Assembly: GCF_018437235.1 (NCBI RefSeq)
Contig: NZ_JAAMFJ010000001.1
Location: 372,001 to 436,000, forward strand
DNA length: 64,000 nt
Reading direction: 5' to 3'
Source: Fructobacillus papyrifericola
Lineage (GTDB): Bacteria > Bacillota > Bacilli > Lactobacillales > Lactobacillaceae
In this document: one piece after another, positions 32,750 through 62,072 of the stretch
Layout: each line of letters opens with the position of its first letter
Position numbering within the stretch: the stretch's first letter is position 1
Program-made: the position numbers and the translations under genes
The notes under the pieces: model-generated
The model's input: the letters and a program-made list of their open reading frames with translations, nothing else
Database searches by the model: none
What the model was told of the DNA's origin: nothing

Positions 32750-32768
32750 TTAATACGTTCACTTATCG

Positions 32769-32794: not shown

Positions 32795-32806
32795 CTGTCT
32801 GAAATC

Positions 32807-32836: not shown

Positions 32837-32861
32837 CAATCACAAATAAAGGAGTCATGCC

Positions 32862-33607: not shown

Positions 33608-33662
33608 TTGAAAAATTAGGAGAAGAAGTTCAGAATGGGGGCGAAAGATGAAAGGAGACAGT

Positions 33663-34319
33663 ATGGATTTTGAAAAAGTGTTGACCAATCGCCACTCCGT
33701 TCGTCAGTTTTCGGAAAAGAAAATTGACCAAATGACTCTTTTTGACCTGGTTGAAGAGGCGCAGAGCAGTCCTTCCTGGGTGAACGCTCAAGAAGTTGGG
33801 GCAGTGGTTGCCATCGGCGACCGGCTCGAACAGATGCGTGATAGGCATGCCGCCCTAAACGCGGATGAAGCTGTCAAGAGTCAGCCAATCATTCCATACC
33901 GGCCCATTCACGAGTGGCCGGAACCCGCACAAAGCAACATGAAGGGCTGGTTCCAGTCGGTCTCTGCTGCCTTGGGTGACAACGGTTCGGACCAACTGGG
34001 CAAGACGGGCAGTCAGCTCTATCAAGCTCAGGCGGTTGTTTACCTGACTTTGCCAAAGGGCTACTCCGACTGGTCCTTGGTTGACCTTGGCATTTTTGCG
34101 CAGACACTGATGCTTGCGGCAACCAACAAGGGGATTGGTTCCATTCCTGCCTACCAGTACGTGCAGTACCCAGAGCAGTTGGCCGAAGCACTCGAACTGC
34201 CAATCGACCGCGTGCCAATTCTGGGTATCGGCCTGGGTTATTTCGATGAAAAAGTCCCACTGAACCAAATCCGAAGCCAGCGGATGCGCAAAGAAGACAT
34301 TTTGACCATCAAGGACTAG
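33663..34319 (+). CDS. Nitroreductase family protein
   Basis: A 218-residue FMN-binding oxidoreductase. NRHSVRQFSEKKID is the FMN-binding start of the family, LVEEAQSSPSWVNAQEVGAVV follows, and LMLAATNKGIGSIPAYQYVQYPEQLAEALELP with GIGLGYFD forms the C-terminal part. ATG 33663 follows AAAGGAGACAGT. The natural substrate is unknown; such enzymes use NAD(P)H and reduce quinones or nitro compounds. Confidence 0.9.
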   Translation: MDFEKVLTNRHSVRQFSEKKIDQMTLFDLVEEAQSSPSWVNAQEVGAVVAIGDRLEQMRDRHAALNADEAVKSQPIIPYRPIHEWPEPAQSNMKGWFQSVSAALGDNGSDQLGKTGSQLYQAQAVVYLTLPKGYSDWSLVDLGIFAQTLMLAATNKGIGSIPAYQYVQYPEQLAEALELPIDRVPILGIGLGYFDEKVPLNQIRSQRMRKEDILTIKD

Positions 34320-34384
34320 GTCTTAACAGACGTTTCGTACTTTGTTAAAATACAAGTAGAGCAAAGGAAAGGATGGTGTCATTC

Positions 34385-35050
34385 ATGGCAAAGGTATTAG
34401 TGATCGGTGCCCATGGTAAAGTCGGCCACTTGGCCGCTTTGGACTTGGTTGAGGCCGGCGATACAGTTTATGCTGGTTTCCGTAGTCCCAATCAATTTGA
34501 GGATCTAGAAACAAAGGATCGGCTGAACCCGGTTCTCTTCGATTTGACGATGTCTGCTGAGGACATGGTGAAGATCTTGACGGATTATCAGATTGATCAA
34601 GTCGTCTTTTCCGCCGGTGCCGGTGGGAAGGGTGGTGCCGAACGAACAACCGAAGTCGACTTGGATGGTGCTGTGAAAGCCATGGAAGCCGCCGAAAAGA
34701 CTGGTGTGAAACAGTTTGTCATGGTTTCGGCAGCCGGTGCCGATAACCGGGTCATTTGGAAAAAGTCCGGCATCTACACTTACTTCATGATGAAGCACTA
34801 TGCTGACCGCTTCTTGCAGCAATCGAACCTGCCTTACACAATCCTGCGGCCAACCACGCTGAGTGATTCAGCTGGAACAGGTCGCTTGCAATTGATTGAA
34901 GATGGCCAGGCGGGCGCTTCCTCTGTTAGCCGAGCAGACGTCGCCCAGGCGATTGTCACAAGCTTGCACAACCCCAAAGCCCTTAATCGCGTAATTGAAT
35001 TTACGTCCGGTGACGAGCCAATTAAGACCGTTTTTGAAAAACTTGATTAA
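34385..35050 (+). CDS. NAD(P)-binding SDR-type oxidoreductase
   Basis: A 221-residue atypical short-chain dehydrogenase (NmrA/SDR_a5-like). The dinucleotide motif is VLVIGAHGKVGHLAAL, with VMVSAAGADNR, YADRFLQQSNLPYTILRPTTL and SRADVAQAIV typical of the group. ATG 34373 is an alternative start with a closer ribosome site. The substrate is unknown. It may be cotranscribed with the nitroreductase gene 65 bases upstream. Confidence 0.87.
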   Translation: MAKVLVIGAHGKVGHLAALDLVEAGDTVYAGFRSPNQFEDLETKDRLNPVLFDLTMSAEDMVKILTDYQIDQVVFSAGAGGKGGAERTTEVDLDGAVKAMEAAEKTGVKQFVMVSAAGADNRVIWKKSGIYTYFMMKHYADRFLQQSNLPYTILRPTTLSDSAGTGRLQLIEDGQAGASSVSRADVAQAIVTSLHNPKALNRVIEFTSGDEPIKTVFEKLD

Positions 35051-43979: not shown

Positions 43980-44889
43980 ATGGGCTTTAAAAGTCGAAGA
44001 GATGCAGATACAAGCGTTCAACTCGGTCAGCACACGTTTCGGATTCCAGTGATGCCCGCCAATATGGAAACCGTCATTGATCAAAACCTAGCTGAGTGGT
44101 TATCCGCTCGTGGTTACTTTTATGTTATGCACCGATTCAATCCGAACCAGCGCTTTGACTTCGTTCAATCAATGCAACAAAAAGGATTGATTGCATCAAT
44201 CAGTCTTGGTATTACAGAGGACGAATATCAATTAATTGACATATTTAAATCAAATAATATTACACCGGAATACAGCACCATTGATGTTGCCCACGGTCAC
44301 TCCGATTACGTTTTTTAAATGGTTGCTTACATCAAGGAAAAGTTGCCAGAAACATTTCTAATTGTTGGCAACATGAGGACGCCTGAAGCAATCGTCGAAG
44401 CAGAAGCGGCCGGAGTCGATGCAATAAAGGTTGGCATTGATCCAGGGAAAGCATGTATCACAAAGGATAAAACCGGCTTTGGGACCAATTGTTGGCAGCT
44501 TGCTGCCCTTTCTCAGCGTGCACAGGTTGCGACGAAACCAATCATTGCAGACGGTGGTATTCGTCATCACGGGGACATTGCTAAGTCGATTCGTTTTGGT
44601 GCAACCATGGTGATGATTGGTTCCATGTTTGCCGGTCATGATGAGACGCCGGTGAAATTATCGAAAAAAACTGCAAAGCCTACAAAGCCTACTACGGTTC
44701 TGCTTCAGCTCGTCAAAAGGGAAATGAACACAACGTTGAGGGTCAAAGCCTCTTAGTCGAATACAAGATTCCCTCGAAAAGACTTTAAAAGCCATGGAGC
44801 AAGACCTTTCCTCTGCAATCTCATATGCTGGAGGAAAAAGTCTGACCAGTCTCAAAACGGTTGATTACGCTGTTTTAACGGATTACTAA
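43980..44889 (+). pseudogene. guaC: GMP reductase, multiply broken
   Basis: GMP reductase returns GMP to IMP. The remnant begins at SRRDADTSVQLGQHTF; the first 15 or so residues (the DYxDIQLIP part) are gone. VMPANMETVID, YFYVMHRF and DVAHGHS are recognisable. A TAA interrupts at 44316, then [17 protein letters not shown] with the catalytic cysteine, and [28 protein letters not shown] follow. Near 44660 the frame shifts to [15 protein letters not shown], and near 44780 it shifts again to KTLKAMEQDLSSAISYAGG, ending at 44889. Four lesions make a true pseudogene certain. Confidence 0.92.
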
Positions 44890-44896
44890 ACAAGAA

Positions 44897-44925
44897 GGCA
44901 CCCGCTAATGCGGGTGATTCTTTTT
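44897..44925 (+). terminator. Terminator between guaC remnant and purB
   Basis: CACCCGC pairs with GCGGGTG around TAAT, followed by ATTCTTTTTG. Confidence 0.8.
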
Positions 44926-44933
44926 GTTCGATG

Positions 44934-46229
44934 CTAGTTAATTCTAAGGCGCTTAAAAACCTCATCAATTCGTCTGAGGTGGTAATTATAATCAAAGGCA
45001 TCTGCCAAGTTATCTGAGCTCAACTTTTGCTTAATTTCCGGCGACTCTTTGACTAATTTCTCGAATGAAATGCCCTTGTCCCACGCATTGGCAGTTAAAG
45101 GCTGAACCAAGTCATAGGCTGCTTCACGGCTCAACCCCGAGTCAATCAATTTCAACAAGACACGTTGGCTGTAAACCAAACCACCTGTCTTATTTAAGTT
45201 TTCTTTCATCCGGTTTGGGTAAACCTCAAGCTGGGCTAAAATTTTAGTAAAGCGGGTTAACATGTAGTCAATCAAGGTTGTTGCATCGGGAAGAACTATG
45301 CGTTCGACGGATGAGTGTGAGATATCCCGTTCATGCCAGAGTGTAATGTCTTCATAGGCTGGAACGAGGTATCCACGAAGAACCCGTGCCAAACCAGAGA
45401 TATTTTCGCAACCGATTGGGTTTCGCTTGTGGGGCATGGCGGACGAACCCTTTTGTTTTTTGTCGAAGAATTCCTGAACTTCGCGAATTTCAGTTCGTTG
45501 TAAGGAGCGGATTTCAGTGGCAAAATTTTCCAAAGAAGAGCCAATTAAGGTGATCGTCGAAAGATAATCAGCATGTAAATCACGTGGTAGAACCTGACTG
45601 GTAATTGGTTGGTTCTTGAGGCCAAGCAAGTCACAGACTGATTCTTCGATGACCGGTGGGATGTTTGCAAAAGTCCCCACTGCACCAGAAATTTGACCAA
45701 CTTCTACTGCGGAAGAAGCCCGTTCGAAACGCTTGATATGCCGTCCAATTTCGTCGTACCAGCGTGCTAATTTAACCCCCCAAGAAGTCGGTTCAGCATG
45801 AACACCGTGAGTGCGACCAATCATCACCGTATCTTTATATTGAACGGCCTGCTCTTTTAACAGTGCGTGAAGTTTTTTTAAATCTTCTAGAATGATTTGG
45901 TTGGCTTGCTTTAAGCGTAGCCCGTTTGCCGTATCGACGACATCGGTGCTCGTGACACCGTAATGGATCCATTTTTTCTCTGCACCAAGCGTTTCCGAAA
46001 CTGCCCTTGTAAAAGCGACAATGTCATGGTGCGTCTGATTCTCGATTTCTTTGATTCTGTCCAAATCAAAAGAAGCGTTTTTCTTTATCGCCTTTAATTC
46101 ATCAGATGATATGAGTCCCTGTTCGGCCCAGGCCTGATCAATGGCAATTTCAACTTTTAGCCACGCTTTATATTGGTTCTCCATCGACCATATTTTGGCC
46201 ATGGCCGGGCGTGCATAACGATCAAGCAT
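44934..46229 (-). CDS. purB: Adenylosuccinate lyase
   Basis: A 431-residue lyase acting twice in purine synthesis, releasing fumarate from SAICAR and adenylosuccinate. The fumarase-superfamily signature is GSSAMPHKRNPIGCENI; MIGRTHGVHAEPTSWG and HYGVTSTDVVDTANG are also typical. It starts at 46229 (or 46232) behind GGGGG. It is intact and divergent from purA, with PurR-like boxes in the shared gap. Confidence 0.96.
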   Translation of the reverse strand: MLDRYARPAMAKIWSMENQYKAWLKVEIAIDQAWAEQGLISSDELKAIKKNASFDLDRIKEIENQTHHDIVAFTRAVSETLGAEKKWIHYGVTSTDVVDTANGLRLKQANQIILEDLKKLHALLKEQAVQYKDTVMIGRTHGVHAEPTSWGVKLARWYDEIGRHIKRFERASSAVEVGQISGAVGTFANIPPVIEESVCDLLGLKNQPITSQVLPRDLHADYLSTITLIGSSLENFATEIRSLQRTEIREVQEFFDKKQKGSSAMPHKRNPIGCENISGLARVLRGYLVPAYEDITLWHERDISHSSVERIVLPDATTLIDYMLTRFTKILAQLEVYPNRMKENLNKTGGLVYSQRVLLKLIDSGLSREAAYDLVQPLTANAWDKGISFEKLVKESPEIKQKLSSDNLADAFDYNYHLRRIDEVFKRLRIN

Positions 46230-46280
46230 CATATTCCCCCATTCTCTTGAATAACTAAATTTTATCACAAAAATAACTTT

Positions 46281-46386
46281 ATTGTTCGTTTTAATACGTA
46301 TAAATCAATATATTTTTAATTTATTATCATATAAAATGAATAATATTCGTATAATTAACTTGTATTTTATTTTAACGTTCGTTATG
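46281..46386. promoter_or_regulatory. PurR-box-like sites between purB and purA
   Basis: Three copies of the core: ATTGTTCGTTTTA (46281-46293), ATATTCGTATAA (46343-46354) and AACGTTCGTTATG (46374-46386). They lie in the 197-base divergent intergenic region, in the right place to control both genes. PurR with PRPP control is inferred from the known regulons of B. subtilis and lactococci. Confidence 0.65.
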
Positions 46387-46423
46387 ATGGTCCTGTTGAA
46401 TCGAATAAAAAAACAAGGAGTGA

Positions 46424-47707
<1,284 letters not shown>

Positions 47708-47753
47708 GAAAAAAAGCCCATATTTAATTAGAAAGAACAAGACAGGAACCATT

Positions 47754-47769
47754 TTAACGTTCGATATTT
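47754..47769 (+). promoter_or_regulatory. PurR-box-like site before riboswitch
   Basis: TTAACGTTCGATATTT carries the same core as the purA box. It is followed 48 bases later by the riboswitch aptamer, so the operon once had dual control. Confidence 0.55.
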
Positions 47770-47816
47770 TAAAATTGAAATAAAAACATCCGTTTTCATA
47801 GTACAACACATTCACT

Positions 47817-47917
47817 ATTTTGGCGTTATATCCGGTTTTTAATGCTAACCGAGTTTCTACCGTCCGGCAAAAAGGACGACTATCACCAAGGGTTTTAAAG
47901 CGCGCTTGGGATTTTTT
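47817..47917 (+). promoter_or_regulatory. Guanine-class purine riboswitch with terminator, partly degraded
   Basis: J2/3 is fully conserved (GTTTCTACC, 47853-47861), and J3/1 is GACTATC with the specificity C at 47880, as in guanine rather than adenine aptamers. P2 is CGGTT/AACCG and P3 is GTCC/GGAC. The 3' P1 arm (TATCACCAA) overlaps the left arm of a terminator CCAAG...CTTGG plus T6 (47886-47917), the OFF-switch design. Damage is visible: P1 has two mismatches (47824 and 47826), and loop L3 lacks the usual CC pair. It sits before a dead permease gene. Confidence 0.78.
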
Positions 47918-48006
47918 ACGTGCTTTTTTGTTTCTCCCGATAGAGAGCTCTGTGTGTCATTTTTAGAATCGAGTATGACAGGGCTTCACCAACTCAAGGA
48001 GATATC

Positions 48007-49114
48007 ATGGAAAACCCAACAAAACCACTTCCTACAGTCCAAGCGTTCCTGCTTGGACTCCAATACGTTCTAGCGATGTACGGTGCGACGATTGTTGCAG
48101 GACTGTTTGTAGTGCTGGTTGCTGGTAGCTTTTCTAGCTTACGTGACTTTTCCCACCCGTCGTCACTGGTTCATTGATTACCGTGATTGGGTTAAGTCTA
48201 ACACCGATTGCTCTTCAGAATTGAGGAGGCGGCACAACAACTGTGAAAAGTTTCGGTTCCTATCAAAACTTGATTATTGGACTGATTACTATCATGATTA
48301 CCTTAATCTTGATGAAATTTGCTAAAGTTTTTTTGAAAGCCATCTCGATTCTACTTGGGATTGTTTTAGGTACGATTTTTTCGTTCTTTTTCGGCGCTGT
48401 TTCACTTAAGCCGGTTGGGAATGCTGCTTGGTTCCACTTACCGGCCCCTTTCTTTCTAGGTATGCCGACTTTTTTCATGGTCCGCTTCCTTGACAATGAT
48501 TGTGATCGTCCTGACTGCCATGATTGAAGCAACCGGTGTGTATTTTGCCCTCGCTGAAATCACTGGGCAAAATCTTAGTCAAAAAGATCTCGTCCGAGGC
48601 TATCGAGCAGAAGGACTTGCTGCCATTCTTTCAGGTATCTTTAACACCTTTCCCTACTCGACTTTTTCTCAAAACGTGGCTGTTATCCGTCTGTCTGGTG
48701 TGAAAACGAAACATCCGATTTACTACGCAGCCAGTCTCCTACTCGTTCTCGGACTGTTACCAAAATTCGGCGCACTAGCCACCATCATTCCAAGTGCTGT
48801 TCTTGGGGGCTCCATGCTGGTCACGTTCTCTACCATTGCGATTCATGGGGTTCAGATTCTCGGAAAAGTCGATTTAACTAAAAAAGGCAATTTGTTGACC
48901 GCCCGCCGGTCTTTCAATTGGCGCTGGACTTAGTATTGGTGCTGTCTCGACTTTTCTCAACCAATTTCCTGAAGCTTTCAAGTTGATCGTGACAAACGGT
49001 GTTGTCGTGACCACTCTTCTTGCCGTTTTGTTGAACCTTTTTTTGAACGTTGCCCAGACAACAATCAGAAAAACAAAACAAATCGTCAATAATGATAAAA
49101 TAAAAAATTCATGA
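48007..49114 (+). pseudogene. pbuX: Xanthine permease, deleted and frameshifted
   Basis: An NCS2 nucleobase:cation symporter remnant. It starts FLLGLQYVLAMY and then jumps to GATIVAGLFVVL, so roughly 70-80 residues are missing between these blocks. Frame changes follow near 48130, 48230, 48470 and 48900. Family blocks remain in pieces: IEATGVYFALAEITGQ, LVRGYRAEGLAAILSGIFNTFPYSTFSQNVAVIRLSGVKT and LATIIPSAVLGGSMLV. The last frame ends at 49114. Riboswitch and xpt context point to xanthine or guanine. Non-functional. Confidence 0.9.
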
Positions 49115-49133
49115 ACTAGTTAAGGAAGTTACC

Positions 49134-49720
<587 letters not shown>

Positions 49721-49734
49721 AAGACTCGTAGATG

Positions 49735-49769
49735 AAAAAGGCAGCCCGTGTGATAACGGACTGCCTTTT
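49735..49769. terminator. Bidirectional terminator
   Basis: AAAAAGGCAGCCCGT pairs with ACGGACTGCCTTTT. It separates the xpt remnant and the convergent pgi. Confidence 0.88.
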
Positions 49770-49780
49770 ACTTTACATTC

Positions 49781-51133
49781 TTACTTTCCCAAACTCTTTG
49801 AGTATTCTTTTGTTTCTTCTTCGTAACCTGGCTTGCCTAAGAGTGCGAACATGGCAGTCTTATAAGCTTCAACACCTGGTTGGTTGAATGGGTTGACGGC
49901 GAAGAGGTAGCCGGAAATGGCCACGGCTTTTTCGAAGAAGTAGATTAAGTAACCAAGTGTGTACTCGTCTTGCTTTGGCAAGTGAACGGCGAGGTTTGGC
50001 ACACCCCCGTCAACGTGGGCAAGGACGACACCTTGGAAGGCCTTCGTGTTCACTTCGTCAATGGTCTTCCCTTCGAGGTAGTGAAGCCCGTCGTTGTTCC
50101 CCTCTTCGGTAGGGAGTGGCATATCAACGATTGGGTTATCCAATTTGACAACCGTTTCGAAGAGGTCACGACGACCTTCTTGGATGTATTGACCGAGTGA
50201 GTGAAGGTCGGTTGAGTAGTTGGCAGACGTTGGATAGATTCCCTTCTGGTTCTTACCCTCTGACTCACCCATCAACTGCTTCCACCATTCGGACAGGTAT
50301 TGCATGCTTGGTTCCCAGTTCGTCAGCAATTCACTCGTGTAGCCCTTGTCGTAGAGGATTCGGCGCAAAGCGGCATAACGGTAAGCGTCGTTCTTCTTCA
50401 AATCCTCATTGTCGTATTCTCGTTCGCTGTCCCTAGCCCCTTGCATCAAGGAATCGATGTCAGCACCTGAGGCTGCGATTGGCAAAAGACCAACCGGAGT
50501 CAGGACAGAGAAACGACCACCGACACCGTCGGGAATGACAAAAGTCTCGTAACCAGCTTCTTCAGCTTCGTTATGAAGCGCACCACGCTGACCGTCGGTC
50601 GTAGCGTAAATCCGTTTCTTAGCACCCTCCTTACCGTACTTCTTTTCCAACAACTCCTTGAAGACACGGAAGGAAACGGCTGGTTCAGTCGTCGTTCCGG
50701 ACTTAGAGATAATGTTCACGGAAAAGTCTTGGTCACCGATGGTACGGATGAGGTCAGTCAAATAAGCAGACGACATGGAGTTTCCGGCAAAATAGACTTT
50801 GACACCCTTGCGCTGTTCCTTGGCCAATTCGTTGTTAAACATTGGGTTCAAGAAATCGATGGCCATCTTGGCACCGAGATAAGAACCACCAATCCCGATG
50901 ACCACCAAGACGTCAGAATCGGACTGAATCTGCTGAGCAGCAGCCTTGAAACGGTCCAAGTCAGCCTGCTTTGTATCCGTTGGCAACGTCACCCAGTCGG
51001 TAAAGTCGGCACCCGCACCCGAACGGTTTTCGAGTTGCTCGTGGGCTAACGATACCAATGGCTGAATTTCGTCTAATTCATGATCCGCAACAAAGTTCTT
51101 CACACTGTCGCTATTAAAGTTAATATATGACAT
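49781..51133 (-). CDS. pgi: Glucose-6-phosphate isomerase
   Basis: A 450-residue isomerase interconverting glucose-6- and fructose-6-phosphate. [60 protein letters not shown] and the C-terminal PGVEAYK are diagnostic. It starts 27 bases after the fructokinase gene on the same strand, so fructose can pass through fructose-6-phosphate to glucose-6-phosphate for the phosphoketolase route. Codon use suggests good expression. Confidence 0.97.
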
Positions 51134-51160
51134 TCTTTCTCTCCTCGCTTCCCTAATCCA

Positions 51161-52069
51161 TCACCGGTCGATGGCAAAGGCGTGGCCCTCACCAACTTTT
51201 ACGACTTTCTTAGCCAAGGAAAAGTCTCCGAGCGTAGCCGATCCGTTGTTCTCAATCTCTGGCATCGTGATGTACTCCTCCAAAGGTAGTACGTCGACGT
51301 AACCGTTTAACTCATCAGCAAAGTGCTCGCGAATCATGTTCAAGAACTCCGGTGACATCACCCCACCACCAAAGACAATCTTGTTTGGGCGAACCGTCAA
51401 AGTTGTTTGCACGGCAGCTTGGGCCAAGTAATAAGCCATGATGTCCCAGGTTGGGTCAGTAATCGGAACCTCTTTTCCGTTCTTACCAAGACGAGCGTCG
51501 AAAGTTGGGCCGGAAGCCAAGCCTTCCAAGCAGTCGCCGTGGTGTGGGCAGATGCCCTTGAAGGCTAAGTCGGCTGGATGGCGCTTGACTTTGACGTGGC
51601 CCATCTCCTGCAAACCGAGGGCCCCGATAAAGTGGCCATCAATCACAATTCCAGCACCAACACCGGTTCCGACCGTATAGTAAACCACGCTCTCAACGTC
51701 TTCGTCATGGCTTTTTGCAGAAACATATTCGCCATAGGCTGATCCATTGACATCCGACGTCAAAAAGATTGGCACGTTAATTTCATTTTTAATTTTATCA
51801 ACAATGTTAATCCCCCGCCAGGCGACTTTCGGTGTTTTTTTCGTAATCACACCGTAGTCGGGATGGTTCAGGCGGACTTCAACAGGACCGAATGCGGCAA
51901 TCCCAATGGCATCCAGTTCCGGAAAACGTTTAAAAAAGTCGACCGTTCGTTGTAACGTCTCTTTGGGATTCTTCGACGGAAAGGTTTCCTGATCAATAAC
52001 CTTATAATTTTCATCGCCAACGGCACAGACAAACTTTGTTCCACCAGCTTCAACACTTCCAAGCAACAT
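51161..52069 (-). CDS. scrK: ROK family fructokinase
   Basis: A 302-residue sugar kinase making fructose-6-phosphate. The ATP loop is GSVEAGGTKFVCAVGD; IGIAAFGPVEV, YYTVGTGVGAGIVIDG and MGHVKVKRHPADLAFKGICPHHGDCLEGLASGP, with the His/Cys zinc cluster, are typical of ROK fructokinases. It heads the scrK-pgi operon with a perfect cre site in its promoter region, so CcpA control is likely. Other hexoses as substrate cannot be ruled out. Confidence 0.93.
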   Translation of the reverse strand: MLLGSVEAGGTKFVCAVGDENYKVIDQETFPSKNPKETLQRTVDFFKRFPELDAIGIAAFGPVEVRLNHPDYGVITKKTPKVAWRGINIVDKIKNEINVPIFLTSDVNGSAYGEYVSAKSHDEDVESVVYYTVGTGVGAGIVIDGHFIGALGLQEMGHVKVKRHPADLAFKGICPHHGDCLEGLASGPTFDARLGKNGKEVPITDPTWDIMAYYLAQAAVQTTLTVRPNKIVFGGGVMSPEFLNMIREHFADELNGYVDVLPLEEYITMPEIENNGSATLGDFSLAKKVVKVGEGHAFAIDR

Positions 52070-52122
52070 ATTGTTTTCCTCCTATTGTCTATGTCTATAT
52101 AGTAGCACTCTTTTGTTATAAA

Positions 52123-52136
52123 TGAAAGCGCTTTCA
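52123..52136 (-). promoter_or_regulatory. CcpA cre site in scrK-pgi promoter
   Basis: TGAAAGCGCTTTCA is a perfect palindromic cre. On the minus strand it overlaps a possible -35 (TTTCAT) placed 17 bases before TACTAT, so binding would repress. Confidence 0.85.
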
Positions 52137-52177
52137 ATAAAATGTTAAATAAAAAGTCTAGCTTTGTTTTGACGTAT

Positions 52178-52213
52178 ACCCCCGAAAGTTATAATAACTT
52201 TCGGGGTATTTTT
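52178..52213 (+). terminator. Hairpin directly before the IS remnant ORF
   Basis: CCCCGAAAGTTAT and ATAACTTTCGGGG form a long perfect stem, followed by TATTTTT and then the ATG at 52214. It looks like a terminator that shields an insertion sequence from outside transcription. Confidence 0.7.
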
Positions 52214-52471
52214 ATGACTAAAATTTCTAAAGAAACTAAAATTAAAGCAATCAACGAGTATCTCCTTCATAGGCGGAAATGTTCACTGGCTTATGTTGCC
52301 CATAGATACGGTATGAGTAGAACTAATTTTCGAACGATGGTTGCCGCTTATGAGCACCACGGACCAACAATTTTTACTGATTCCCCAAAAATCACAGCTG
52401 ATTTTCGGATTCAATTAGTTCGTTGGATGATTAAAAATCAGGCTTCTTATATTGAAATAGCTGCTCATTTA
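52214..52471 (+). mobile_element. IS3-family OrfA-like transposase remnant
   Basis: About 86 residues of a helix-turn-helix transposase subunit: MTKISKETKIKAINEYL, LAYVAHRYGMSRTNFRTMVAAYEHHG and a second helix-turn-helix start near IAAHL. It resembles the OrfA of IS150-type elements. Homology stops at 52471, where the reversed remnant of an ABC permease begins, so the right part of the element is lost. No orfB with the DDE domain is present. Confidence 0.7.
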
Positions 52472-52641
52472 ATGCCAGCTCGTAGCCAAATGTTTGGGTT
52501 AGCTAGATCATGTACCGCGTAAGCTGCCACGTATTGAATCATGACATAGCTGATAGTGGTTACAAAAACAATGGTACGAAAATAACTGTTTTGTGCAAAT
52601 AGCTTAAGGTGAAAGTAAACAATCGTCAGAAAATCTTTCAT
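52465..52641 (-). pseudogene. ABC-2 type permease, N-terminal fragment
   Basis: Starts at ATG 52641 after AAGGAGG and reads MKDFLTIVYFHLKLFAQNSY, then a first membrane segment (TIVFVTTISYVMIQYVAAYAV), and stops at the IS junction after about 58 residues. It is the membrane partner of the ATPase gene just upstream. The remainder was removed, probably with the IS insertion or a later deletion. Family call is by position and the single helix. Confidence 0.6.
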
Positions 52642-52644
52642 TTT

Positions 52645-53404
52645 CTACCTCCTTAAACTGTTGGCCAAGGCAAGGTAGGATTCTTCTAACGTCGCCGGAC
52701 GGTTAACTTTCGTTACGCCGGAAAGCTTAACAACACTTTCAACCGTGCCATCGTGAACGATTTTTCCAGCATCAATGAGCAAGACTCGGTCTGCCAAACT
52801 TTCAATTTAGCTCATGGTGTGACTAGTGAGTAAAATGGTCTTTCCATTGTCAGCGATCTTTCTAGTGAGGTCCCGGATTTCATGGGCAATTTCCGCATCT
52901 AATTCGTTCGTTGGTTCTTCTAAAAGAATGATGTTGGTATCTTTTAACAAGGCTCGAGCAATGTGTAATCGTTGCCGCATGCCACGAGAAAACTCACCAA
53001 CGTGCTGATTTTGAACGTCTTGTAATTGAACGGTTGATAGCACTTCCTCAATCCTTTTTTTGCGCTCTTTTCTAGGAATCTTAAATAAAACCGAAAAGAA
53101 CTTCAAATCATCGAAAGCGGAAGCACGGGCATAAAAGCCAAGTCCCCTACCAAAAACGGTAGCAACCTGGTTTTGAACTAATTTTGGCGACAAAGCGGCA
53201 TCCTATCCATCAATAATTACGTGTCCAGCCGTTGGGCTAAGATATCCAGCAATCATCTTCACCGTTGTTGTTTTTCCAACACCGTTAGGGCCTAGTAAGG
53301 CAACAATTTCACCCTTTCTGATTTGGAATGAAACATCAGCCACGGCGGTAAATGGCTGTTTTTTTCTGACCGAAGTGTCGCTTTAAATTTTTAACTTCAA
53401 GCAA
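52645..53404 (-). pseudogene. ABC transporter ATPase, broken
   Basis: The ATPase of a DrrA/YxlF-like export system. Walker A is [18 protein letters not shown], the signature is EFSRGMRQRLHIARALL and Walker B is IILLEEPTNELDAE. Three lesions are visible: one extra A in a run near 53360, a TAG near 53203 (after VIIDG) and a TAA near 52808 (after SHTMS). The C-terminus ESLADRVLLIDAGKIVHDG continues past the last stop. A TTG at 53404 is the probable start. Its permease partner is truncated downstream. Confidence 0.85.
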
Positions 53405-53533
53405 AAGAAACCTTCTCTCTGAACGACGCAACTCGACTTTTCATCAAAAGATGCAAACGTGCTACGACTTTTAAACAATTATGGCATTTTACTCATAAAA
53501 AGTCAATTAGTAAGATTAAACAAGCATTTCCAA

Positions 53534-53572
53534 CAAAAAAAGGCAACGACCCCCAGGTTGTTGCCTTTTTTA
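53534..53572. terminator. Terminator of alsD-alsS
   Basis: AAAAAAAGGCAACGAC pairs with GTTGTTGCCTTTTTT around CCCCAG. Confidence 0.9.
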
Positions 53573-53584
53573 AATAACTTGTCA

Positions 53585-55309
53585 TTATCCTTCGGACTCA
53601 ATCAACTGTGAACCAAGTTCGTAGTTGTGTGTGTAGTCAACTGGCACGTCCACAACAACTGGGCCATGGACAGCGAATGCTTCATCAAGCACCTTGTTCA
53701 AATCTTCAGGCTTATCAACGCGAAGACCCTTGGCACCGAATGCTTCGGCGTACTTAACGATGTCGATGTTACCAAAGTCAACACCGGCACATTCACCGTA
53801 CTTCATTTCTTCTTGGAACTTCACCATGTCATAGTGAGCGTTATCGTTCCAAACGATGTGCACTGTATCCAAGTTCAAGCGAACGGCCGTCTCCAATTCC
53901 ATTGCGGAGAAGAAGAAACCACCATCACCAGAAACGGAAACAGATTTGGCACCTGGACGAACCATGGCAGCCGTGATAGCCCATGGCAAACCGACACCGA
54001 GTGTCTGCATACCGTTTGAGATCAAGAAGTGACGAGGCACGTAAGACTTGAAGTGACGAGCCATCCAGATGTAGTGGGAACCGATATCCGTTGAAACCGT
54101 CATGTCATCCGTTACGTGGTTTTGAATGGCTTCCACGACATCCAACGGATGGATCAAGTTTTCAGAGGCAGGCGTGTAAGTAGGCTTATCTGCTTCAGCC
54201 AAATCTTCCTTCATTTCCTTCAAAACAGCTTGTCCGGCTGCTGGAATTTCGTAACCCTTGATGTCTTCTGCCAGCAAGTTCAAGCTTTGGCTAAGATCAC
54301 CAATTAATTGACGCTTTGGCACAAAGTTGTTGTCGATTTCGACGGGCGTTGTATCCAAAGCCACAATGTTCAAGGTGTTTTCCTTGTTCCAGTTCCGTGG
54401 TTCGTATTCGATGGAATCGTAACCAACCGTCACAACCAGGTCAGACTTTGACAAGAGCTTATCACCCGTTTGGTTACGGAAAAGTCCTATACGACCAAAG
54501 AATGAATCCTTTTCGAGGTCACGTGAGATAACACCGGCACCTTGGTAGGTTTCAACAACTGGCAACTTTGTGTCACCCAACAAAGCGTGCAAAGCGTCAA
54601 CCGTGTCATCATCAGAACCACGAGCACCGACCAAAAGAACTGGCAGTTCAGCCTGCTTGATTTGTTCAGCCAACCACTTCAAGTCTTCTAATGCAGCAGC
54701 CCCTTGCTTAGCAGCAGGCACTTCAGGTAAAGCTTCGATTGAAACCGGTGAATCATCGACATCTTGTGGCAATGAAACAAAGGCAGCCCCACGCTTTGCC
54801 CCGTTTGCAGCAGCAAAGGCGTTTGCGATGATTTCTGAAATGTTGTTTGGATCTTGAATTTCAGAACTGTAGTTTGTAATCGACTTGAAAAGTGACACAG
54901 AATCCGTTGACTGGTGAGTCAAACGGTTCAAGTCACGACGTGGTACTTGACCACCAATGGCTAAAACAGAGTCGTTTTCAGCACTAGCCGTCATCAAACC
55001 AGAAACCAAGTTTCCGACACCTGGACCAGAAGTAACAACCACAACACCGGTCTTACCAGTGATACGTGAAAAAGCTTGTGCCATGAAAGCCGCGTTTTGT
55101 TCGTGACGAGTCACGATCAACTTTGGCACCTTTTGCCCCGACTTTGGGTGGTCCAAAGTTTCAAACAAACGGTCAATCTTTGCACCTGGGATACCAAAGA
55201 CAATGTCAACATCGTGGTTGACAAGGCTGTCGGTGACAATATCCGCACCAAATTTTTGTTCAGACATGTTTTTACTATGGGTTTTGATGAGAGAAAAGTC
55301 GAAACCCAT
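53585..55309 (-). CDS. alsS: Acetolactate synthase, catabolic type
   Basis: A 574-residue TPP enzyme condensing two pyruvates to alpha-acetolactate. VFGIPGAKIDRLFETL, TRHEQNAAFMAQAFSRITGKTG, TSGPGVGNLVSGLMTA and the TPP motif GDGGFFFSAMELETAVRLNL match AlsS rather than IlvB. The start at 55309 has AAAGGAAAC; the internal ATG at 55266 would match lactococcal AlsS but lacks a ribosome site. It follows alsD by 40 bases. The operon drains pyruvate to acetoin and diacetyl. Confidence 0.94.
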   Translation of the reverse strand: MGFDFSLIKTHSKNMSEQKFGADIVTDSLVNHDVDIVFGIPGAKIDRLFETLDHPKSGQKVPKLIVTRHEQNAAFMAQAFSRITGKTGVVVVTSGPGVGNLVSGLMTASAENDSVLAIGGQVPRRDLNRLTHQSTDSVSLFKSITNYSSEIQDPNNISEIIANAFAAANGAKRGAAFVSLPQDVDDSPVSIEALPEVPAAKQGAAALEDLKWLAEQIKQAELPVLLVGARGSDDDTVDALHALLGDTKLPVVETYQGAGVISRDLEKDSFFGRIGLFRNQTGDKLLSKSDLVVTVGYDSIEYEPRNWNKENTLNIVALDTTPVEIDNNFVPKRQLIGDLSQSLNLLAEDIKGYEIPAAGQAVLKEMKEDLAEADKPTYTPASENLIHPLDVVEAIQNHVTDDMTVSTDIGSHYIWMARHFKSYVPRHFLISNGMQTLGVGLPWAITAAMVRPGAKSVSVSGDGGFFFSAMELETAVRLNLDTVHIVWNDNAHYDMVKFQEEMKYGECAGVDFGNIDIVKYAEAFGAKGLRVDKPEDLNKVLDEAFAVHGPVVVDVPVDYTHNYELGSQLIESEG

Positions 55310-55349
55310 GTTTCCTTTCATTTACATTCTAATTTATACGGGATTATGC

Positions 55350-56057
55350 TTATGACTCTGCGTCAGCAATGACACCGTTTAAGCTTGAAAGGTCCGTTAA
55401 GTCGGCCTTCTTGTAATCTTCGTTGTTCGTTGGCAAGTTAATCGTAACACCAGACAAAATCTGGATGGAAACATCAACGGACTTGAGCGTGGCGCCTAAG
55501 ACATGACCACCGAAGTCCAAATTGTCAGATAAGAAGTGCTGGTGGAAACCAGGAACGCCAACACCTTGGAAGACAAGCGGTGTGAAGTAAACAACCATCG
55601 TCCCCTTCACGTCATCTTTGTCGAAAATAACCTGCGTCTTGGCAATTTCGCCAAGGCCTGGGTAAGGCTTTTCGGACTTGGCAGCGGCACGAGTCTCAAC
55701 CGTCTTGAATTCACCGGTCATCTTAACGGCGAAGAAGAGGTTTTCAGTGCCAACTTCCTTCAGAATTTCCTTTTGCATATCGTCAAGCGTAATGTTATCA
55801 AAGTGCTTCAGTGGCTTGAAATCTGCTTGATGAACATCACCGAAAGCGATGGGAAAGTCACCAGCAACCTTGTTTACGTGTCCGTGAACGTCGACTTGGT
55901 AAGCCACACCGTCCAACATGATCAACTCACCATCGACACCAGCACCCGTTCCAATTCCAGTATTACCGGAAGCTAACACATCTTTAGCCGTTACAAAACC
56001 GTCGAGAAGACTCTCAACCAACATTTGCATCGTTCCAAATTGTACAACTGGTTTCAT
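55350..56057 (-). CDS. alsD: Alpha-acetolactate decarboxylase
   Basis: A 235-residue enzyme converting acetolactate to acetoin. FGTMQMLVESLLDG opens the family; the zinc histidines and GGHVLG lie in PGFHQHFLSDNLDFGGHVLG. DGELIMLDGVAYQV is typical. It is the first gene of alsD-alsS. The upstream region carries two TTGACAA-containing motifs and a broken marR gene, which may have encoded its regulator. Confidence 0.95.
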   Translation of the reverse strand: MKPVVQFGTMQMLVESLLDGFVTAKDVLASGNTGIGTGAGVDGELIMLDGVAYQVDVHGHVNKVAGDFPIAFGDVHQADFKPLKHFDNITLDDMQKEILKEVGTENLFFAVKMTGEFKTVETRAAAKSEKPYPGLGEIAKTQVIFDKDDVKGTMVVYFTPLVFQGVGVPGFHQHFLSDNLDFGGHVLGATLKSVDVSIQILSGVTINLPTNNEDYKKADLTDLSSLNGVIADAES

Positions 56058-56161
56058 GTATTACCCCCTATCTTTATTTGTCAACTAAGTTTACCTATAA
56101 AGTCTACTCCTCCGAACACATTTTTGTCAATATTGTTAATAAAAGAGTTTATTTTTAATTT

Positions 56162-56577
56162 TTAAAAACTTTGTAAATAATGAGTCACCATGTCTTCTAA
56201 GGCCTGTTGCCAATCACCATCGTGCTTTTCTAAGTAGTGATTAATCTTTTTGCTCTGGTCTCGGTTTAGTTCGGTAATCATGGCCTGCCCTTCGTCAGTC
56301 AAGTACAGGTCTTTTATCCTGGGATCATCCTGTGATGGCCTTGTCTCCAATAGATTTCGTTCTTCCAAGTCCTTGTAGGGCTTGATAAATCCTTGCTTGC
56401 TAATTCCCATGATTTTCAAGACTTTTTAATGGTTGGCTTCGTTAAATGGCTCACCAAAAAAAGAATCCGGTGCTATGTTTTGGTTATGTGAAAGCGCTCC
56501 AAATCAATGTTTTGTGAAAAATCCTGATAGGTGAAGTAAATCATCGCAATATTGGACTCTTTAATTTTCTCTACCAT
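56162..56577 (-). pseudogene. MarR family regulator, broken
   Basis: Starts at ATG 56577 with VEKIKESNIAMIYFTYQDFSQ. A TAG interrupts near 56475 after HITKT, then LFLVSHLTKPTIKK, one extra A near 56425, and the winged-helix core MGISKQGFIKPYKDLEERNLLETRPS plus LYLTDEGQ. Two lesions in one short gene indicate decay. It lies upstream of alsD on the same strand, so loss may have freed alsD-alsS from control. Confidence 0.8.
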
Positions 56578-56622
56578 GGTAACCTAACCCTTCCACTTCC
56601 ACATCGTTTCGTTAGCTAAATA

Positions 56623-57165
56623 TTAGCAGATTTGAGACAAAACAAAATGGTCCTCCCTTATGGAGAACCAGAAGAAGTTGATTTGTTTTTTTGAGAGAAC
56701 CTTTGCAAACATTGTCTTTTTACGTCGTTGACCCATTCGGTAACTTGAATTAATGAACCCAAAGGCGATTAAGAAAAGCACGGTCAACCAGTAAGCAATG
56801 AGGTGATGACCTAGATTAAAATGTTCAAAAACTTCGTAAGTAGTTGAGATACTGTTTAGCAAACCATCCAATGAAACGTAGAACCAATCCGTTGACTTAT
56901 CAAAGTACCGAAGAATATCTTTCAGCTCCCCTGAACTTAACCCTTCTTTTTGAATAATTTCGATGGATCGCCGTTTTTCATAAGCAATTTTATAGAATGG
57001 CAATACCCAATACCAAGAAGAGATTTTCGGATATTGGCGATCATCCTTGGTAAGGGCTCGAATTGTTGATTCCTGTTCTTCCAATTCCAATCAGGATTGA
57101 TATAAAGGAAAGATGAAGAGTAGCCATTCTTCAATGAATGACAGAATTAACATGAACCGTTCCAT
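56623..57165 (-). pseudogene. Unknown membrane protein with internal TGA
   Basis: I do not recognise the family. From ATG 57165 (AGAGGAATAATT upstream) the frame reads FMLILSFIEEWLLFIFPLYQ and meets TGA at codon 25 (57091-57093). It then continues for 155 residues: soluble stretch TIRALTKDDRQYPKISSWYW, then a membrane segment ending FLIAFGFINSSYRMGQRRKK. Without the stop it would be 180 residues with two membrane segments. It is a nonsense mutant, or the downstream part could start at TTG 57090. Confidence 0.55.
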
Positions 57166-57251
57166 AATTATTCCTCTACTTTCGGTATCGCGTTCGCTTC
57201 ATTATTCTAGGCTTTCTAAAATAAACAGTCAAACAACGTCCAAAATTTTCA

Positions 57252-57284
57252 AAAGAAAAAAGCAATCCCCAAGGAGGATTGCTT
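57252..57284 (-). terminator. Terminator after the P-type ATPase remnant
   Basis: On the minus strand AGCAATCC pairs with GGATTGCT and is followed by TTTTTC. Confidence 0.88.
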
Positions 57285-57297
57285 CTAAATATAACGA

Positions 57298-60071
57298 TTA
57301 TTGATTCAACTTCATAAAATACTTCCGGACAAACCACTTCCGTAATTCTTCTAAGAGAACCAATGGGATTAGAATGGCAATCAGAAATAGCCACTCGGCC
57401 ACACCTAGGGCGTGTGTGTTAAAGACGCCCTGTAAGAATGGTACATGGATAATCAGTGAAATTAGGAAGATTTCGAAGATGATTCCCGTAATAATATGTC
57501 GGTTACTGAAGAGGCCAATATTAACGACTGACGTGTACTTGGTACGAGCATTCATGGCCGCTGCAATCTGGCAGAAGACAATGGCCGCTAAAGTAATGGT
57601 GGTTGCTTCGGCATAAACGGAACCAGAGGCTGACAGTGCGTGCTTGGGCCAACCATAGGCGTAGTTCACGAAGAAGTAAGCAGCCGATGAAATTAAGGAA
57701 GCGACCAACCCGTATAGCGCGAAAGCTTTCCAAATAATGGACTTATTCAGTAAGTGTGCTTTTCGTGAACGTGGGGGTTCCTGCATAACACCAGGTTCAC
57801 TCTTTTCAGAGCCCAACCCAAGCGCTGGGAGCATGTCCGTTCCCAAATCGATGGTTAGAATCTGCATAACTGTCAGTGACAATGGGATTAAGCCCCCAGA
57901 AAAGAGGAAGAGAACGGAAGGAAAAGATTCAGGGACGTTCGAGTTCAAGATGTAAAGTAAGAACTTTTGAATGTTACTGTACACCGTTCGTCCTTCCTCA
58001 ATGGCGGCAATGATCGATGCAAAGTTATCGTCCGTCAAAATCATGTCGGCCGCTTCCTTGGCGACATCGGTTCCGTAGCGCCCATGGCAATACCAATATC
58101 AGCTTGTTGCAAAGCTGGGGCATCGTTGACACCATCCCCCGTCGACGCCACGATTTCGCCGTTCGCTTGATTAGCCTTCACAATACGGTATTTCTGTTCA
58201 GGAGCCACGCGAGCAAAGAGTACTTCACCCTTGACTGCCTCGCGTAGGTCGTCGTCGGACATGTTGTCTAGCTCATCTCCCGTGACCACGCGGGCCTGAT
58301 CAGATACCAAAACAATTTTGACGGCCACTGACTTTCCAGTGATTGGTCCATCCCCTGTAAGCATGATGATGCGAGTACCTGCTTGGTGGGCCTTCTTCAC
58401 CGCTGCATAGATTTCAGGAGTGGTGGAGCGGCCATGATGGTCAAGCCAACAAAAGTCAAATTCTGTTCCGTATTTTCGCCAGTGGCTTTCGATAAATCCT
58501 GACTTTCACTGTCTGACAAATCACGGTAAGCAACCGCTAAAGCACGGAATCCCTGCTTTGCATAGGATTCGTTAGCCGCTTGAATTTGTTGAACATCATT
58601 GTCCGTAATGTCCCGAACCTGACCATTCGTCAAAATGGAATTGGTCTTGGCCAAGATACCGTCCAGGGCACCTTTCGTGTAGAGAGTCAGTTGCCCTTTT
58701 TCGTTTTTATTAATCGTCGACATCCGCTTTCGATCGGAATCGAAAACCAACGTTTTCTGACGAGGATTTTGAACGTTCAGCTCGTCGCTGTTCAGCTGAT
58801 ACTTTTGAGCCAAAATCACGAGTGAGGCCTCGGTGGGCGTTCCCACAATTTGTGGTTGACCATCGGGCCTGTTCGCTGCTTTAACCGCCGTGTCGTTGTT
58901 TAAGGTCACCGCCTTTAACAATAAGTCTAGATCAGCATTTTTCCTGCTTTCACGGGTTGATTCCCATCCATCACCTGACCATTATTGACGTAGCCTTCGC
59001 CGAACACCGTAAAGACTTTGTCAGGAAGCCAGAAATTGTTAATGGTCATCTGGTTTTGCGTGAGTGTTCCAGTTTTATCCGAAGCGATGACGGTCGTTTC
59101 ACCCAGTGTTTCGACACTGTTGAGATTCTTAACCAAAGCATGCTTCTTGGCCATTCGCTGGACCCCTGCACCAATGACAAAGTCACCGTGGGAAGCAAGC
59201 CTTCAGGGATAAAGGCCACCACCATTCCAAGGGCGAAGATGAAGGACTGGGCCACCGGATAATGAACAAAGAAAATCGCCACCAAGAAGAAGGCAGTTCC
59301 GATTGAAATGGCGATAATGGACAGTTGGCGGGTCAAACGGTTCAATTCGATTTCGAGTGGGGATGGCTTAGAATGCTGACCCTGAGTCAACTTGGCAATC
59401 TGTCCAAACTCCGTGTTCATTCCCGTGTTGATGGCCATGACTTTGGCAGAACCAGCAGAGGCCACTGTCCCGGCATAAACCAAATTTTGTTCAGCAAACT
59501 TGCCCTCCCCATGACGGTAGTCAGCTTTTTTGTCGGTCAGGTCAGACTCACCGGTTAAGGCTGATTCGTCAACTTGCAACGAATCGAAAGAAATGACCCG
59601 GGCATCGGCCGAGATGCTATCACCGGCAGAAATGACTAATAAATCACCCGGCACAATCGCGGCCGTGTCAATTTGCTGTGACTGGCCGTCGCGAATAACC
59701 GTTGCCTTGGTTGGCAACATTTTCTTCAAAGCATCCGAAGCCTTCTGGGCCTGGTTCTCTTGCCAAAAACTAAAGAGCCCGTTAATAATGTTGACGGCCC
59801 AGATGGCAATGCCCAATTCCAACATTTGGGCAAACATGGCGATGAAACCGGAAACCCAGAGTAGAATGGCCATCAAGCTGGTAAAGTTCTTCTAAAACTG
59901 CCACAGTTTATTTTGACCCTTTGCGGCAGTAATGACATCCGGCCCGTACTTTGCCTCTTGTGTTTTCACCTGATCGGCGCTGAGTCCATTGTCACTACTT
60001 GCTACTGTTTGATAGAACTGGTCAATGGGCATTTGTGCCAATTGATCGGAACTCTGCTTTTGACTAGGCAT
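57298..60071 (-). pseudogene. P2-type cation-transporting ATPase, five lesions
   Basis: A roughly 920-residue Ca2+-type (PacL-like) pump in pieces. The cation-ATPase N-domain (MPIDQFYQTVASSDNGLSAD) is followed by TAG at about 59893. IVPGDLLVISAGDSISADARV, the phosphorylation loop [38 protein letters not shown] and the C-terminal transmembrane domain are all recognisable. One-base losses near 59170, 58935, 58420 and 58075 split the frames; restoring single bases rejoins [22 protein letters not shown] and ATGTDVAKEAADMI. The start ATG 60071 has a strong AAAGGAGGGGG site. Confidence 0.9.
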
Positions 60072-60094
60072 CGTTTTCCCCCTCCTTTATAGTT

Positions 60095-60153
60095 AAAAAA
60101 CCCACAGAATAACTAACCATGTTCATTTTGACCATGAATACCCATTCTGTAGG
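60095..60153 (-). terminator. Long hairpin with T-run in the ATPase leader
   Basis: On the minus strand CCTACAGAAT pairs with ATTCTGTGGG, enclosing an inner UUCAU/AUGAA hairpin, and six U follow. It sits just 24 bases before the ATPase start, so it either terminates the small-ORF transcript or attenuates the pump gene. It is better paired as minus-strand RNA (a U-G wobble replaces a mismatch). Confidence 0.65.
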
Positions 60154-60182
60154 CTTTGTTTGTCCACTAGTGGGCTAAGAAG

Positions 60183-60344
60183 TTAGCAGCCCTTCCCATT
60201 CGAAATCATGGCGTAAACTGATTCAACTAGCATACCGCCAGCCATGACGTACATAGCTAACATCCCCTGCATACTAGCTAAAAGATAAATCGTGTAAACC
60301 CAAACTAAGGCCATAATAAAATGGAAAATTCGATTAAATGACAT
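60183..60344 (-). CDS. 53-residue membrane protein upstream of the P-type ATPase
   Basis: A short gene starting at ATG 60344 after GGGGAGCGGGAG and ending TAA. It reads MSFNRIFHFIMALVWVYTIY, then ASMQGMLAMYVMAGGMLVES, and ends NGKGC. It is Met-rich (eight Met) with one or two hydrophobic helices and a C-terminal cysteine. I recognise no family. Its place between a metal-pump remnant and a multicopper oxidase suggests a metal-related role, but this is inference. Confidence 0.55.
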   Translation of the reverse strand: MSFNRIFHFIMALVWVYTIYLLASMQGMLAMYVMAGGMLVESVYAMISNGKGC

Positions 60345-60403
60345 GTCTCCCGCTCCCCTTTTTTGATGATTACTACTTGTGTGACCAAATCATAACATAT
60401 TTA

Positions 60404-60433
60404 TTACACAAATTAGAACTATTCTTGTATACT
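60404..60433 (+). promoter_or_regulatory. Promoter of the multicopper oxidase
   Basis: TTACAC (60404-60409), 18-base spacer, TATACT (60428-60433). An inverted repeat TTGTGT...ACACAA (60377-60411) overlaps the -35 and could be an operator. Confidence 0.5.
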
Positions 60434-60458
60434 ATCCGTAAATAGAGGAGGAAATACG

Positions 60459-62009
60459 ATGACAGAATCAAAAAAGCCGATCTATAACGACTACTTTTTT
60501 AACGAATCCGCTTACGATTACCACGATGGCGGGTATGTACCCTTGGAGAAGTATGACTCCCCAACGGTACCGCTAAACATTCCAGAAATTCTAAAGCCGG
60601 ATAAGGAAACAGATACCGATGTCTGGTTGACTGTTCACGCCCAACCTGGTGAAACCCAGATTGTTCCCGGTCCAAAGACCAAGACTTGGGGCTACAACCA
60701 AAGCCTGCTCGGTAAGACGATTGTCTTTAAGAGTGGTAAGACTTACCACGTGACTTTGAAGAACACCTTGCCGGAACTCACGACTTTCCACTGGCACGGA
60801 TTGGACGTACCTGGTCCTTTCATTGATGGTGGTTGTCATGCCCCCGTTTACCCCGGTGAAGCAAAGGAGATCACGTTCAAAGTCGAACAACCCGCGTCAA
60901 CTACATGGTTGCACGTCCACCCATGTCCATTGACTGGCTGGGACGTTTGGCACGGACTCGCTGCCATGGCCTACGTCAAGGATGAGCACGAAGCATGCTT
61001 GCCAATTCCACACAACTATGGTGTCGATGACATCCCTGTTGTCTTACAAGACCGTCGTTTCCATGAGGATAACCAGTGGGACTATGATGGCGACTACGAT
61101 CCTGATGGAACCGCCGGTCCAACGGCCATGTTGAACGGAACTGTCAACCCTGAATTTGATGTCACAACCCAAAAGCTGCGCGTTCGTTTCTTGGATGGTT
61201 CCAACCGTCGTGAATGGCGCTTGCACCTATCTGACGACTTGGTCATGACCCAAATCGCTTCCGATGGTGGACTCTTACCAGAACCCGTCCAGATGACAAA
61301 GTTCATGATTACCTGTGCCGAACGTGCCGAATTCATCTTGGACTTTAAGGATTACAAGCCTGGTGACAAAGTCAGCCTGTACTCCGATGACATGCCAATC
61401 TTGACTTTCAACATCAAGGAATTCGCCAAGGATGACACCGAAATTCCAGAGCACTTGGCCGACACTTCATACCCTGATCCAGAACCAAACGCCCACGTGC
61501 ACCAAGTGGTGATGTCTGGAACGGATGAAGAAGTCATGCTGAACGGTAAGAAGTTCGGTATGATGCGGATTGATGACCGGCAAGAACTTGGCAAGTCCGA
61601 GTACTGGGATATTACCAACACCAACGACTGCTGTGGCGGCATGCTTCACCCTTACCACATGCACGGTGGCTCCTTCCAAATTGTTTCGCGTAACGGTGAA
61701 GCACCTTACCCTAACGAATTAGGCTACAAGGACACGGTTTCCGTTAACCCTGGTGAAACGGTTCGAATCAAGATGAAGTTCAACTACGAAGGTGTCTTCA
61801 TGTACCACTGCCACATCATCGAACACGAAGACGGCGGTATGATGGCCCAGATGCAAGTTTGGACCAAGGAAGAACCCGAAAAGAAGTACAACCTGATGGC
61901 CATGGACACGTTAATGAACGCCCTCGCCGAGGAACGCGGCTGCAAAGTCAGCGCATTAAAGATTTCAAGCCTTGAATCCTACAAGAAGATGGGCATGGAC
62001 ATGTGCTAA
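60459..62009 (+). CDS. Multicopper oxidase (laccase-like)
   Basis: A 516-residue three-domain cupredoxin oxidase. All four copper-binding segments are present: FHWHGLD, WLHVHPCP, HPYHMHGGSFQIV and YHCHIIEHEDGGMM, giving the T1 and trinuclear sites. There is no Tat or Sec signal, so it appears cytosolic, as reported for related lactobacillar laccases. Relatives oxidise Cu(I), phenols or biogenic amines; the substrate here is unknown. A GGAGG site precedes the ATG. It is intact, unlike its neighbours. Confidence 0.94.
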   Translation: MTESKKPIYNDYFFNESAYDYHDGGYVPLEKYDSPTVPLNIPEILKPDKETDTDVWLTVHAQPGETQIVPGPKTKTWGYNQSLLGKTIVFKSGKTYHVTLKNTLPELTTFHWHGLDVPGPFIDGGCHAPVYPGEAKEITFKVEQPASTTWLHVHPCPLTGWDVWHGLAAMAYVKDEHEACLPIPHNYGVDDIPVVLQDRRFHEDNQWDYDGDYDPDGTAGPTAMLNGTVNPEFDVTTQKLRVRFLDGSNRREWRLHLSDDLVMTQIASDGGLLPEPVQMTKFMITCAERAEFILDFKDYKPGDKVSLYSDDMPILTFNIKEFAKDDTEIPEHLADTSYPDPEPNAHVHQVVMSGTDEEVMLNGKKFGMMRIDDRQELGKSEYWDITNTNDCCGGMLHPYHMHGGSFQIVSRNGEAPYPNELGYKDTVSVNPGETVRIKMKFNYEGVFMYHCHIIEHEDGGMMAQMQVWTKEEPEKKYNLMAMDTLMNALAEERGCKVSALKISSLESYKKMGMDMC

Positions 62010-62022
62010 GCATTCCTTTAGC

Positions 62023-62072
62023 ACATAAAAAAGAGCACGCCAAGATGTAAAAGTCGGAGCATGCTTTTTTCG
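62023..62072 (+). terminator. Imperfect terminator after the oxidase
   Basis: An A-run with GAGCACGC faces GGAGCATGC plus six T. The stem is interrupted. Confidence 0.55.

Follow-up and report, generated by a model that had tools for sequence, protein, structure and literature searches.

A putative clade-specific variant of the guanine riboswitch with an inverted loop–loop pair, upstream of a broken pbuX–xpt operon in Fructobacillus papyrifericola

The locus and its broken purine-salvage genes

The DNA analysed here, a stretch of 64 kb that we call the window, belongs to the 1.3-Mb genome of F. papyrifericola (G000), whose genus is represented by 13 genomes in our collection and the sister genus by 2. 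It contains a purine riboswitch aptamer followed by the remains of pbuX and xpt, and the remains of guaC lie 3 kb upstream of the riboswitch (Table 1). The earlier note had drawn the riboswitch at 47817–47917, an interval that also covers part of the terminator.

Table 1. Features of the riboswitch locus in the window, with an eroded copy of the riboswitch from a relative
Feature	Position	Strand	Basis
Variant purine (guanine-type) riboswitch aptamer with flanks	47814–47895	+	R1, R2 and RF00167 scores
P1 5′ strand, with U19 and C17 mismatched	47820–47828	+	Sequence, alignment
P2 and L2; GC at 47844–47845 (G37, C38)	47833–47851	+	Sequence, alignment
P3 and L3; GC at 47867–47868 (G60, C61); kissing partner of L2	47861–47878	+	Sequence, alignment
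C74, which reads guanine in known guanine riboswitches	47880	+	Sequence; role from available passages of PMC3764141
P1 3′ strand (switching strand)	47881–47889	+	Sequence, alignment
Predicted antiterminator, CCAAG (47886–47890) with CTTGG (47905–47909)	47886–47909	+	Folding; pairing kept in G005 and G011
Predicted terminator, AAAGCGCG (47897–47904) with CGTGCTTT (47919–47926), U run to 47929	47897–47929	+	Stem energy, sequence
pbuX (xanthine permease) pseudogene, approximate ends	48007–49112	+	Alignment with G006, whose copy is TIGR03173
xpt (xanthine phosphoribosyltransferase) pseudogene, approximate ends	49134–49714	+	Alignment with G006, whose copy is TIGR01744
guaC (GMP reductase) pseudogene, extent of the match; separate from the riboswitch locus	43986–44886	+	G011 copy is TIGR01306
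Eroded copy L164 before a broken pbuX	G008:C10:118512–118593	−	Real case of decay

The closest relative at this locus is G006, in which pbuX and xpt are open. Compared with G006, pbuX of the window lacks 231 bases in a single deletion and also contains an in-frame stop, an insertion of four bases and three one-base indels, and xpt has three indels; compared with G011, guaC contains a TAA codon and two frameshifts. The description of the operon as dead in the earlier note was correct, and the damage extends to guaC. Sequencing error was rejected as the source of these lesions because purA, purB and pgi, which lie beside the broken operon, align with G006 without a gap and because one of the lesions in pbuX is as long as 231 bases. 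This deletion (window 48072–48082) lies between two copies of ATGTACG that are 231 bases apart in G006, as expected for slippage between short repeats.

The locus is part of a tract of approximately 18 kb (window 43986–62069) with 95% identity to G006. Outside the tract, a 4-kb stretch (30870–34862) aligns with G006 in two pieces at 74–75% identity, and the guaB region aligns at 78–85%. The GC content is 44.8% in the tract and 48.7–51.1% before it, and that of G006 is 45.0–45.7%. The tract looks like DNA that moved between the G000 and G006 lineages, with the direction inferred from GC content. An open frame at 52142–52522 resembles, by eye, a helix-turn-helix fragment of an insertion sequence; the G006 alignment breaks there, and approximately 1.3 kb of G006 between window positions 52171 and 52470 is unmatched in the window.

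G000 also has a canonical purine riboswitch (L001; 50.2 bits with RF00167), which is located before guaB. The guaB frame that follows it, with guaA next, encodes 676 aa (G000:C1:246553-248767; L181:154-2368) in which IMP dehydrogenase continues into a second TIM-barrel part that is IMPDH/FabK-like. Frames of approximately 677–681 aa are also found in G002, G004, G006, G007, G008 and G010, and in G009 each of the two parts has a frame of its own (402 and 323 aa).

The aptamer and its loop–loop contact

The element was identified with covariance models. R1, which was built from 20 canonical purine riboswitches and lacks the P1 pairs because RNAalifold predicted none, matched the window aptamer with 45.5 bits (E 1e-8). 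This was the sole match at E ≤ 10 in the 64 kb with filters off, and a chance match was rejected on these grounds. R1 also gave 37.4–46.4 bits in all 13 variant loci submitted to it, and the homology to canonical purine riboswitches is taken from this model. R2, a model built from the variant copies, gave 106.2 bits for the window aptamer, which is itself among the members of R2. The Purine model, RF00167, produced no match at its gathering score within the window and no match at E ≤ 10 in 401 bases. When only 96 bases were searched, it yielded 25.6 bits against a cut-off of 37; the Purine-model search advised by the earlier note thus recovered the element, but under the cut-off. The z-scores of single-sequence folding were not significant (−0.90 for 130 nt and −0.43 for 87 nt); therefore, the case for the aptamer rests on homology and comparison. 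The assignment to the guanine type, already proposed in the earlier note, is supported.

Aptamer positions are numbered in what we take to be the scheme of the Bacillus subtilis xpt riboswitch. This numbering was matched to passages of PMC3764141 and PMC5480868. Read directly from the window, J1/2 is UAUA, J2/3 is GUUUCUAC, and J3/1 includes C74. The conserved core (U22, U47, U51, A52 and C74) does not vary in alignment A2. Alignment A1 comprises 13 variant aptamers: two from the sister genus and 11 from the genus, where 12 were found and the eroded copy of G008 was set aside. The three-way junction of P1, P2 and P3 is retained: 83.8% of the cells pair in the 13 variants, and each helix pairs at 79% or more over all 32 variant and canonical sequences. 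P2 has non-pairing positions at C25–A45 and U31–U39. Seven of the nine positions of P1 are paired in the window, and direct reading confirmed the two mismatches noticed earlier, U19×U77 and C17×A79. Position 17–79 is mismatched in every row of A1 from the genus and is a C–G pair in the sister genus, and 19–77 lacks a pair in 7 of the 11 distinct rows but forms one in G011, in G002 and in the sister genus. For the window and G006, the best ligand-free fold differs from the aptamer fold and is 1.6 kcal/mol more stable; over the 13 variants, this gap ranges from 0 to 6.3 kcal/mol. An alternative fold pairs the P1 5′ strand with L2; among the 13 variants, only G000 and G006 have it as the most stable structure of the bare aptamer.

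Loops L2 and L3 of the window each carry GC in place of GG and CC, and the two GCs can pair, just as the earlier note had read them. The pair 38–60 is C–G in all 13 variants versus G38–C60 in the canonical riboswitch, so the canonical letters are not retained there, and 37–61 remains G–C. The pairing was counted over 31 distinct rows, drawn from 20 canonical and 12 variant sequences; the eroded copy of G008 and the copy of G012 were left out. Position 38–60 is G–C in 20 rows, C–G in 11 and unpaired in none, and 37–61 pairs in all 30 distinct rows with letters there; hence, the kissing contact is kept as a pairing. A loss of the loop contact is not borne out, since 38–60 pairs in every distinct row. 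The loop change is compensated, with both sides of 38–60 changed and the pairing kept. The inversion looks like one evolutionary event; therefore, its row counts are not independent.

The neighboring loop positions have also changed. U33 is present in 13 of 13 aligned variant copies and A34 in 12 of 13. The available passages of PMC3764141 describe U34, G37, G38, C60, C61 and A65 as universally conserved, and the variant lineage departs from the set given there at G38, C60 and U34 (the last in 12 of 13 rows). According to the passages of PMC5480868 at hand, the lower base quadruple of the contact consists of 33, 38, 60 and 66 and the upper one of 34, 37, 61 and 65; thus, the changes at 33, 38 and 60 and at 34 touch both quadruples as defined there. 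No report of the inverted pair (G38C/C60G) was found in a limited search of the open-licence literature.

The variant shares with the guanine-I xpt-pbuX riboswitch (RF00167) the three-way junction, the core letters, C74, the L2–L3 kissing contact, the xpt and pbuX targets, and a terminator with an antiterminator that overlaps the P1 3′ strand. It differs from this class in C38–G60, U33, A34, the 17–79 mismatch of the genus and the score below the cut-off. L001 has the same fold and core, and U24 is present in both, whereas L001 has GG/CC loops, scores above the RF00167 cut-off and precedes intact genes. The available part of PMC9295807 describes xanthine-II, guanine-II and 2′-dG-III riboswitches, which are likewise built on the guanine riboswitch scaffold and occur naturally in Bacillota. 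However, the variants described there are altered in the joining regions that surround the ligand, whereas in the window variant the pocket letters are kept and the differences lie in P1 and the kissing loops.

Distribution of the variant

In 9 of the 13 genomes of the genus and in both genomes of the sister genus, the variant precedes pbuX and xpt genes that are open. All 11 of these genomes carry it before frames of 429–456 codons (pbuX) and 192–199 codons (xpt), so that the purine-salvage targets broken in the window are intact in these relatives. The earlier note had named such conservation of the P1 and loop variants before intact permeases as an argument for a functional variant. The loops follow this expectation, but the P1 mismatches differ among the relatives. 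The reading as a variant aptamer, which the earlier note gave as its second choice, is supported by these intact operons.

R2 gave 79.5–108.4 bits in 12 of the 13 genomes of the genus and in both of the sister genus, and at most 55.5 bits in the remaining genomes of the 397 searched in the family, under stricter filters by which weak matches are lost. GG/CC loops were seen by eye in the 16 loci retrieved from other genera. In a sample of 398 Bacilli genomes, which includes no other genome of the genus, one strict pattern was used for each loop type. The swapped pattern, which would also miss the AACGC form present in G001 and G005, was found in 1 genome, that of the window, and the canonical pattern in 174. 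At E ≤ 10, RF00167 listed the pbuX-leader copy in 1 of the 12 variant-carrying genomes of the genus (G002, 35.9 bits, below the cut-off). It gave no match at this threshold in any of the eight variant loci scanned, pbuX leaders with intact genes among them, and 53.7 and 52.7 bits for two canonical loci scanned alongside.

Switching, decay and meaning of the variant

Within the genus, the loop of a terminator hairpin that ends in a U run contains CUUGG, with which the CCAAG of the P1 3′ strand can pair. The antiterminator pairing is kept by other letters in G005 (CCCAAG/CUUGGG) and G011 (CAAGCGA/UUGCUUG), and it is the best fold when the window platform is folded alone. A simple terminator scan, which allows loops of only 3–8 bases, found no terminator in the window. 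The terminator stem is predicted at −7.8 kcal/mol in the window versus −9.7 kcal/mol in G006, and at −9.3 to −14.2 kcal/mol in five other relatives; the value for G005 is −6.9 kcal/mol, but the script picked another hairpin there. The layout of these strands suggests a guanine OFF switch that acts by termination. Guanine or a close analogue would bind the aptamer, and the bound ligand would hold the P1 3′ strand within P1 and away from CUUGG. The freed terminator could then form and turn pbuX–xpt off. The preference of the window platform for the antiterminator and the empty terminator scan speak against this reading. No such terminator is found in the sister genus; therefore, this reading does not reach the sister genus, in which the switch may act on translation.

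The window element is, on comparative evidence, a clade-specific variant of the known guanine-type purine riboswitch that was recently orphaned. Very probably, it is the guanine-type switch of one genus of Lactobacillaceae and its sister genus, with the outer kissing pair inverted from G38–C60 to C38–G60 and with a 17–79 mismatch in the genus; its operon died fairly recently here, leaving the switch orphaned, with an aptamer unchanged from that of G006 and a somewhat weaker terminator.

The earlier note had instead described a riboswitch decaying together with its dead operon. This would agree with the true breakage of pbuX, xpt and guaC, the RF00167 score below the cut-off, the terminator that is weaker than in G006, and the occurrence of such erosion in G008. 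However, 84 of 84 bases of the window aptamer match the copy that precedes the intact operon of G006, and the pbuX leaders of relatives whose genes are intact escape RF00167 as well, as in all eight variant loci scanned. We therefore regard erosion of the window copy as improbable. The weaker predicted terminator stem is the only hint of loosening within the window. The erosion idea is right for the relative G008 and wrong for the window copy. In G008, pbuX is broken and xpt is open, and the aptamer has C50 changed to U, C61 lost and with it the pair 37–61, two broken P3 pairs and a changed CUUGG.

Timing is consistent with a recent loss of the genes. Between the window and G006, purA, purB and pgi differ by 3.6–4.2%, and pN/pS is 0.127 for purA, 0.325 for pbuX and 0.266 for xpt. 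By a rough estimate that takes purA as the unrelaxed baseline, 1.1–1.8 neutral changes are expected in the 84-base aptamer since inactivation, and the probability of none is 0.16–0.33. Therefore, recent death explains the unchanged aptamer without selection; the identity shows that the operon died recently and is not proof of current selection.

It is quite unlikely that the variant senses another purine such as xanthine, an idea that draws on the functions of pbuX and xpt, a xanthine permease and a xanthine phosphoribosyltransferase, and on the altered loops. The guanine-riboswitch pocket letters U22, U51 and C74 are kept; in the available part of PMC9295807, the variants with altered ligands differ in the joining regions, and guanine-I riboswitches are described there as also controlling XPRTase genes. 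It is hardly credible that the leader was kept for some other job, such as a small RNA from premature termination, because, although an unchanged aptamer before broken genes would suit such a role, recent death suffices without selection, the next gene, pgi, is on the opposite strand, and the leader of G008 did decay.

We thus return to the orphaned guanine-type switch. One shared inactivation in the genus is not supported because the pbuX lesions of G000, G002 and G008 differ, although a guaB tree joins G000 with G008 (98/98). In G002, pbuX and xpt are broken, and the aptamer is kept with CUUGG lost; in G007, neither a pbuX match nor a variant riboswitch was found. The genus thus offers a natural series of a riboswitch outliving its genes, which runs from the intact operon (9 of 13 genomes) through the window, G002 and G008 to G007.

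With some reserve, we favor the view that a natural guanine riboswitch lineage has rebuilt both loop–loop base quadruples, with 38–60 inverted, A33 replaced by U in all copies and U34 by A in 12 of 13. On this view, a contact said to be universally conserved would have a natural double mutant, in cells that also contain a canonical GG/CC copy; its P1 mismatch would tune the switching, and the standard model would overlook it at the cut-off. These observations suggest that the inverted kissing contact causes the standard cut-off to miss the pbuX switch of this clade. They also suggest that evolution can invert a textbook RNA tertiary contact, the kissing contact of purine riboswitches, and keep its pairing.
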